A stretch of 64,000 nucleotides of DNA, taken from assembly GCF_000526155.1 (NCBI RefSeq), contig NZ_JAFN01000001.1:624501-688500 (forward strand), in the 5' to 3' direction. This DNA is from Deferrisoma camini S3R1. GTDB taxonomy: Bacteria; Desulfobacterota; Deferrisomatia; Deferrisomatales; Deferrisomataceae. The position numbers were made by a program, and so were the translations under genes. Positions within the stretch are counted from its first letter, which is position 1. Each line of letters starts with the position of its first letter. Below the pieces are notes generated by a model that searched no databases, had not been told where the DNA came from, and worked only from the letters and a program-made list of their open reading frames with translations. This document shows, piece after piece, positions 17,738 through 44,049 of the stretch.

Positions 17738-17797
17738 TTGGGCCTTCGGCCCGCTAGGACGCTAGGAAGCTGGGAGGCTAGGAGGCTTGAAAACCTC
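17738..17797. repeat. Hairpin plus 8-bp-period array after a stop codon
   Basis: GGGCCTTCGGCCC (17740-17752) can form a hairpin directly downstream of the stop at 17725. Five exact octamers follow (17753-17792, units such as GCTAGGAA and GCTGGGAG) and the tail AAAACCTC. It is the same composite as 6508-6566. The hairpin could act as an RNA end or terminator, but no T-run follows. Confidence 0.8.
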
Positions 17798-17873
17798 CTT
17801 GATCTCCGAGCATTCCAAGCACAGCCACGCCTCTTTGTTACCACCTCACAGTCCGGGGGGCATGGGGTCTGCC

Positions 17874-18046
17874 GGAGAGCCGGGCGCGGCTCCTATGCTC
17901 GCCGCGCAGTGCCTCCTGCGTCCGGACCGCGAAATGGTACCCCTTGCACGCAGCTGTGATGAAACCAACTCCCCTGTCCTGTGCCTGCGCGGCGAATCTC
18001 AACGCCCGGCTTCGCGCACGGCCGGAGGCAGACCCCATGCCCCGCC
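17874..18046 (+). repeat. Diverged copy of the core of the 268-bp inverted-repeat element
   Basis: This 173-bp stretch aligns without gaps to 43821-43993, with about 32 differences by eye (about 81% identity). Shared landmarks are GGAGAGCCGGGCGCGG at the start, GGACCGCGAAATGGT in the middle, and CGGCCGGAGGCAG near the end. The outer arms and terminal repeats of the full element are not recognisable here, so this copy is probably degraded. Confidence 0.8.
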
Positions 18047-18123
18047 GCCGGCAACGGCCCCGGACCCCATCAGTTACCTTCCCTTGTTGCCCGGCCCCGC
18101 GGGGGCCTGAGGGGGCTTCCTCG

Positions 18124-18147
18124 CCTCCCAGCTTCCCAGCCTCCTAG
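18124..18147. repeat. 8-bp-period array (complement orientation) upstream of lexA
   Basis: Three exact octamers (CCTCCCAG, CTTCCCAG, CCTCCTAG) end 10 bp before the lexA -35 element. They are the reverse complement of the array at 17753, so the intergenic gap is bracketed by an inverted pair. Confidence 0.75.
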
Positions 18148-18157
18148 CCCTCCATCC

Positions 18158-18186
18158 TTGACTTACGCAAAACTTACGCATATGCT
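18158..18186 (+). promoter_or_regulatory. lexA promoter with direct-repeat operator
   Basis: The -35 TTGACT (18158-18163) and -10 TATGCT (18181-18186) are 17 bp apart. The promoter contains two perfect direct repeats ACTTACGCA, at 18161-18169 and 18172-18180, spaced by 11 bp, one helical turn. This is the natural position for LexA self-repression. The -10 covers the upstream in-frame ATG at 18182, so transcription should begin near 18193-18194, at or next to the ATG at 18194. Confidence 0.7.
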
Positions 18187-18193
18187 CTCCGCC

Positions 18194-18808
18194 ATGGCGA
18201 CCCCGAGACTCACCCCGAAACAGAAGCAGGTTCTCGACTTCATCCGGCAGTACTGGGACCGACACGGCGTGGCCCCCACCCAGCAGGAGATCGCCCACCG
18301 GTTCGGGTTCCGCTCGTTGGGTACGGTGCAGAACTACCTGAAGCGGCTCGAGGCGGAAGGGGTGCTCGAGCGTCGTTGGAACGGGAAGCGCTCCCTGCGG
18401 GTGGTGGAGACCCAGCCCGGCCGGTCGGCCGCTGAGCTGCCGCTGCTGGGCACCGTGGCGGCCGGCCGCCCCATCGAGGCGGTGGAGGTGCCCGACACGT
18501 TCGAGGTGCCCGCGCCCATGGCGGCCGGGGGCGAGCGGTTCGTGCTGCGGGTGCGGGGGGATTCGATGGTGGAGGACGGCATCCTGGACGGGGACTACCT
18601 CGTGGTGGAACGCCGGCCCACGGCCCGGCCGGGGGAGACGGTGGTGGCCCTGGTGGACGGGGAGGCCACGGTGAAGCGCTTCCACCCGGTGCCGGGGGGG
18701 GTGGAGCTCAGGCCGGCCAACGCCGCCATGGAGCCGATCCGGGTGGAGCCGGACCAGGAACTGCGGATCGTGGGCCGGGTGGTGGGGGTGATCCGGTTTT
18801 GCCGGTGA
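18194..18808 (+). CDS. lexA: SOS repressor LexA
   Basis: 204 residues from the ATG at 18194. An in-frame ATG at 18182 lies inside the -10 box and neither has a ribosome site, so a leaderless start at 18194 is preferred. The N-terminal winged helix (about 1-65) reads TPKQKQVLDFIRQYWDRHG and GTVQNYLKRLEAEGVL. The autolysis domain has the Ala-Gly cleavage site in TVAAGRPIEA (about 91), the serine in GDSMVEDGI and the lysine in GEATVKRF. RecA-stimulated self-cleavage would free the SOS genes. A small membrane-protein gene follows 11 bp after the stop. Confidence 0.95.
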   Translation: MATPRLTPKQKQVLDFIRQYWDRHGVAPTQQEIAHRFGFRSLGTVQNYLKRLEAEGVLERRWNGKRSLRVVETQPGRSAAELPLLGTVAAGRPIEAVEVPDTFEVPAPMAAGGERFVLRVRGDSMVEDGILDGDYLVVERRPTARPGETVVALVDGEATVKRFHPVPGGVELRPANAAMEPIRVEPDQELRIVGRVVGVIRFCR

Positions 18809-43714: not shown

Positions 43715-44049
43715 CCTCCCAGCCTCCCAGCTTCCCGGCCTTCTAGCCTTCTAGCATTCTATTAACCCGGCGGATAAACAGGCGCTATCGCTCCCTGCTC
43801 GGCGGGGCAAGGGACCTGTCGGAGAGCCGGGCGCGGCCCCTTAGCTCGCCGCGCAGTGTCTCTGATGCTTGGACCGCGAAATGGTTCGGATTCCACATAG
43901 TTGCCATGAAACCAGATCTTCAGTCCCGTGCCTGCGCGGCGAATCTCAATGCCCGGCTTCGCGCCCGGCCGGAGGCAGGTCCCTTGCCCCGCCCTCCAAG
44001 GTGACGCGCCTATTTTGTCGCCGGGTTAACTAGCTTTCCAGCCTTCCAG
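43715..44049. repeat. Octamer array before dnaE, interrupted by the inverted-repeat element
   Basis: Eight 8-bp units of the form CYTYCYRG run up to 12 bp before the dnaE ATG. Five complete units fill 43715-43754. The sixth begins CATTCTA at 43755-43761 and is completed by the G at 44033, after the inserted element and a second CTA. Two more units follow at 44034-44049. With the element and one CTA removed the 8-bp period is exact. Confidence 0.85.
43762..44029. mobile_element. 268-bp MITE-like inverted-repeat element with CTA target duplication
   Basis: Ends are perfect 11-bp inverted repeats, TTAACCCGGCG (43762-43772) and CGCCGGGTTAA (44019-44029), which continue imperfectly to about 50 bp. 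A second perfect pair, GGCGGGGCAAGGG (43801-43813) and CCCTTGCCCCGCC (43981-43993), marks the inner end of the arms. CTA lies directly outside both ends (43759-43761 and 44030-44032). No protein frame is credible inside. A transposase acting in trans is inferred. Confidence 0.8.

Follow-up and report, generated by a model that had tools for sequence, protein, structure and literature searches.

The window analysed here, a 64,000-nucleotide stretch of the Deferrisoma camini S3R1 genome, contains a lexA gene directly preceded by a compact promoter (Table 1). The gene product, which we call LexA1, matches TIGR00498 with 182.5 bits (cut-off 110.95) and has both the LexA_DNA_bind (PF01726) and the Peptidase_S24 (PF00717) domains over their cut-offs, i.e., the winged helix-turn-helix and S24 combination of LexA. 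In the alignment with E. coli LexA, the segments VAAG, GDSM and TVKR of LexA1 are aligned and the Ala-Gly, Ser and Lys, which we take to be the self-cleavage residues, are matched. Two other start codons were ruled out. The in-frame ATG at 18182 overlaps the -10 hexamer and is not conserved in relatives, which leaves 18194 as the conserved lexA start; the GTG at 17981 (a 275-amino-acid frame) would put the conserved promoter inside a gene.

Table 1. Features of the lexA1 promoter and gene in the window
Feature	Position	Strand	Basis
-35 hexamer TTGACT	18158..18163	+	Sequence; sigma-70-like promoter scan; kept in relatives
Predicted LexA1 operator, two ACTTACGCA half-sites, direct repeat with 11-bp period, in spacer	18161..18180	+	Found in 11/12 genomes of the order
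Half-site 1, ACTTACGCA	18161..18169	+	Sequence
Half-site 2, ACTTACGCA	18172..18180	+	Sequence
-10 hexamer TATGCT (contains the unconserved in-frame ATG at 18182)	18181..18186	+	Sequence; promoter scan
Predicted transcription start (A of the lexA ATG)	18194..18194	+	Inferred from the -10 spacing
lexA1 coding sequence, 204 amino acids, recognition helix FRSLGTVQNYL	18194..18808	+	Profile matches; cleavage-site Ala-Gly and Ser/Lys aligned

The original prediction of a TTGACT-17 bp-TATGCT promoter upstream of this ATG is confirmed by the sequence and by a promoter scan. The spacer is 17 nt long, the ATG lies 7 nt past the -10 hexamer, and no other sigma-70-like promoter was found between 17700 and 19250 (shuffle mean 0.1). 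Two direct repeats had also been placed in the spacer. There are indeed two perfect copies of ACTTACGCA with starts 11 bp apart, but the first begins within the -35 hexamer (its ACT ends TTGACT), and together they take up the spacer and the last 3 nt of the -35. Promoters often contain short repeats, and the copies might be ascribed to chance or to the low complexity of an AT-rich promoter island. We reject this explanation, whose probability is negligible: with up to three mismatches allowed, the 20-mer operator has one match in the window and none in 100 shuffles, that match is the only one in the 4,236,551-bp genome, and the site is conserved far above its flanks (see below).

The intergenic region upstream of lexA spans approximately 470 bp. 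A non-coding element of approximately 400 bp lies there, with 34-nt inverted repeats (88%) at its ends (17753-17786 and 18115-18148) and an inner perfect 17-nt pair (17857-17873 and 18027-18043). Repeats of the CCTCCCAGC type found in this element also occur near 43715, 49495 and 52600 of the window, and it could represent a small mobile or repetitive sequence.

We examined the promoter in relatives (genomes carry G-numbers and loci L-numbers; G000 is the window's own genome and G001 belongs to the same genus). The operator precedes lexA in 11 of the 12 genomes of the order. It reads exactly HTACGC-N5-HTACGC in ten of them, while in G004 a single base of the first half deviates; in the twelfth genome, G011, no LexA was found at all. 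(The lexA upstream region of G003 was taken from L124.) Over the 29 columns that span -35 to -10, the mean top-base frequency in the 11 promoters of the order is 0.92, compared with 0.42 over the 54 columns upstream and 0.63 in the coding bases that follow. Two MAGs with labels of other phyla, Acidobacteria (L010) and Bdellovibrionota (L011), also have this promoter; such labels can be wrong, and lateral transfer may have occurred. The -35 hexamer is TTGAC[T/A] in all 11 promoters of the order and in one of the two outside it (TAGACT in the other). The conserved operator overlaps the core promoter of lexA, as would be the case for an autoregulated promoter.

The distance between the -10 hexamer and the ATG is 6-8 nt in all 13 lexA promoters (11 from the order and the two MAGs), and none of the 13 has an SD-like word from -20 to -4. 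Because both properties are kept throughout, the proposal that lexA is transcribed as a leaderless mRNA with no ribosome site is strongly supported by promoter conservation, in the order and beyond, as a prediction of the 5' end. There is a precedent in another phylum: the lexA of Mycobacterium tuberculosis is also leaderless, its translation start having been shown experimentally to coincide with the transcription start, whereas the start is predicted here (PMC2897130). The long intergenic region would leave room for an upstream promoter that gives the main lexA mRNA a normal leader, with the site still being the LexA1 operator and the promoter near the ATG a minor one. We consider this arrangement unlikely, since no sigma-70-like promoter other than the one near the ATG was found there, and the short gap and missing SD-like word are universal among the 13 promoters while clear SDs precede recA and lexA2 (a second lexA) in the same genome.

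Which protein would recognize the repeat? We compared 103 LexA proteins (106 rows, of which L051, L069 and L074 were dropped by length), 15 of which have the recognition helix SLGT[VI]QN[YF]L. The TTACGC direct repeat is found for 14 of these 15 and for none of the 88 others, where the 15 are mostly relatives and the motif-class patterns were written after viewing the sequences, the TTACGC class having been loosened to admit L027 and G004. The exception is L009, which has the helix and lacks the TTACGC operator in its upstream sequence. On a quick tree, the window LexA falls within a well-supported group of 21 rows; all 14 operator-bearers are in it, along with seven rows without the operator. 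Compared with E. coli LexA, GFRSPNAAEEHL is changed to GFRSLGTVQNYL. Identification of the TTACGC direct repeat as a LexA operator is strongly supported by these comparisons, and the original proposal of a direct-repeat operator by the conservation across the order and beyond.

The second LexA of this genome, LexA2, precedes ImuA- and ImuB-like genes (lexA2-imuA-imuB cluster: L003, L229, G000:C1 ~499943-501660). Its promoter contains a palindromic candidate operator, GCATACATTTGTCTGC, in the spacer. An inverted repeat of approximately CATACA-NN-TGTMTG lies between the -35 and -10 hexamers of lexA2 in G000, G001, G003 and G004, and is absent from the lexA2 promoters of G005 and G007. With a direct repeat at lexA1 and an inverted repeat at lexA2, the cell appears to have one LexA operator of each kind. 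The presence of a second LexA makes it conceivable that the direct repeat is the operator of another regulator controlling lexA1, either LexA2 or an unrelated repressor. This seems very improbable to us. LexA2 has the inverted repeat in its own promoter instead, the TTACGC site tracks the LexA1 helix across labelled phyla (the 14 of 15 versus 0 of 88 above), and the site also precedes lexA1 in G006, G008 and G010, in each of which a single LexA was found.

We are interested in what else LexA1 might control. In the genomes of the order there are 24 exact matches to HTACGC-N5-HTACGC, against 13 for the reversed control: ten before lexA, five in 16S rRNA, two before integron integrase genes (intI) in G007, and seven others that sit in long open frames, a weak indication at high GC content. 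Beyond lexA, clear promoter matches occur only at intI genes of two sister genera: the two exact sites of G007 and a third, with one deviant base, in G004. The sites lie approximately 65-90 bp before the intI ATG, directly past a TTGACA -35 hexamer. L182 and L183 are orthologues (approximately 80% identity) and L193 is a paralogue (52-55%), so the intI sites represent about two lineages. From the nine matches outside lexA and rRNA, we estimate approximately 7e-5 chance matches in the 100 bp before the seven intI genes. No site was found before four of the seven intI matches over cut-off in the order (G000, i.e., the window's own genome, G002, G005 and G011; the G002 contig is without the gene start). 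The association in the sister genera provides independent support for the operator. A 2011 survey that scanned intI promoters for 15 LexA motifs reports only the beta/gamma-proteobacterial palindrome (PMC3108266); a LexA site in the intI promoter would be common to both cases, as a palindrome there and a direct repeat here. Judged by sequence, the sites of G007 and G004 would be an exception to that survey, and the term "direct repeat" is absent from the available portion of a 2022 integron review (PMC8876359).

The intI of the window's own genome (L186, G000:C1:2111851; also L185) has a perfect 22-nt palindrome, CTTATGCGGACGTCCGCATAAG, just upstream of the open frame at ~996. Its promoter region also contains a stretch of TCGGCATAATGCGCTGTAG, which has a counterpart in G005; these are perhaps another control site or an att site. 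A second, partial intI copy (L194, G000:C1:1509527) has a similar promoter.

We then scored sites with a position weight matrix (PWM) derived from 12 typed sites, of which three have the same sequence as that of the window. The window site scores 39.5 bits and the lexA sites 27-40; with a matrix of the other nine alone, among them relatives from the same order, the window site retains 36.8 bits and the next non-overlapping site has 5.5. The original prediction called for matching sites before other SOS genes, and in the window's own genome no strong one was found at recA, the dinB-type polymerase, lexA2-imuAB or intI. Across the order, the maximum is 6.7 bits at recA (12 of 12 loci, scanned whole), 10.0 at the 18 IMS-polymerase loci and 7.7 at the six lexA2 cassettes. 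The one-mismatch pattern has 21 matches in the own genome, fewer than its control (53), and the 19 besides lexA and 16S rRNA all score at most 5.6 bits. Control of recA, dinB or the lexA2 cassette by LexA1 through a strong site is ruled out by these low scores, as is a canonical SOS regulon with the same strong box at recA and other SOS genes. The exclusion covers strong sites: the intI sites score only 16-21 bits, so weak LexA1 sites are possible. The scan does not refute the operator, given the link, seen across genomes, of the site with lexA and with the integron integrases of sister genera. As no other gene in the genome has a strong site, LexA1 seems to be mainly self-regulating there. 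Viral contigs scanned for TTGACTTACGCANNACTTACGC gave no matches, and in six genomes behind the loci the one-mismatch pattern mostly hits an interspersed repeat of G099.

That repeat, TTCCGCGCAGATTACGC, is abundant in G099 (the genome of L010), with approximately 100 copies. Another repeat lies upstream of the window genome's own recA (L004, 2330-2397), where 9.7 copies of the 7-bp CGACCAA stand directly before the ribosome site; no such repeat precedes recA in G001, from the same genus.

Changes of binding motif are a known trait of LexA, and the recognition helix of alphaproteobacterial LexA differs from that of Deferrisoma LexA1. The LexA of Bdellovibrio reportedly does not repress the canonical SOS genes. 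By 2021, 17 LexA motifs had been reported (PMC8565304). The closest in geometry is the alphaproteobacterial GTTC-N7-GTTC, which is likewise a direct repeat of two identically oriented half-sites with an 11-bp period, located in promoters and read by an HTH/S24 LexA; the half-site, however, is GTTC there and TTACGC here (PMC3323433, PMC8565304). In Balneolaeota, the direct repeat TTACACATATTTTWTACATA was also found from lexA upstream regions and was validated by EMSA, but its sequence and spacing are different and its regulon takes in recA and polymerases, unlike here (PMC7739468). The Bdellovibrio TTAC-N3-GTAA and Geobacter GGTT-N10-AACC boxes are, like the one described here, divergent LexA boxes of former deltaproteobacteria; both are palindromes, in contrast to the TTACGC direct repeat (PMC8565304). 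We found no TTACGC-type LexA box and nothing relevant on Deferrisoma LexA in the literature, with LexA-box work on Verrucomicrobia, Patescibacteria, Betaproteobacteria and Acidobacterium capsulatum lying outside the comparison. The suggestion of a new operator type thus holds in part. HTACGC-N5-HTACGC matches none of the motifs compared, and the TTACGC half-site is provisionally new among LexA boxes; its symmetry and period are those of the alphaproteobacterial box, which makes it a known kind of operator with a new sequence.

Is this variant part of a larger class? Among 105 lexA upstream regions, 33 contain a direct repeat of 8 bases, with at most one mismatch, at period 11, an upper figure because several of the repeats are not LexA-like by eye, whereas each of the other periods from 8 to 25 is found in 0-10 regions and shuffling (20 rounds) gives a mean of 3.5 and a maximum of 7. 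Exact 8-base repeats show the same preference (15 at period 11, at most three at any other). The half-sites associate with different helix residues: QN with TTACGC, HK with TTCGCC, HE with TTCGG, and HR or HK with GAGAAC.

We conclude that positions 18158-18194 are probably (roughly 85%) an autoregulated lexA promoter, with a LexA1 dimer on the direct repeat and a leaderless transcript; LexA1 binding, repression, cleavage and the exact 5' end are what we infer from the comparisons. The dimer would bind two half-sites of the same orientation (HTACGC-N5-HTACGC) placed 11 bp, or about one helical turn, apart. Since the half-sites fill the 17-bp spacer, bound LexA would block RNA polymerase, and upon DNA damage RecA-stimulated self-cleavage of LexA would lead to derepression. 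The transcript would start at or within one base of the ATG, so that lexA would be translated from a leaderless mRNA. The strong regulon in this genome would then consist of lexA alone, with LexA2 and its palindromic operator placed before imuA-imuB.

It is tempting to go further, although the odds lean somewhat against the broader picture. The Deferrisomatales and some bacteria of other phyla may have in common a LexA lineage whose QN-type helix recognizes TTACGC direct repeats, within a wider 11-bp class where the half-site bases appear to vary with the helix residues; its own leaderless gene would be the only strong target kept in most of the order, and integron integrases would have been recruited independently. 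The intI sites bear on SOS control of integrons outside the beta/gamma-proteobacteria, and if this picture is true there would be an SOS-integron link without the beta/gamma-proteobacterial box. Natural operator variants tied to a few recognition-helix residues would offer a testable specificity code, and a case for how direct repeats are read by a dimer that normally binds palindromes. The conserved leaderless start raises a question of its own: why should a repressor gene avoid a ribosome site?
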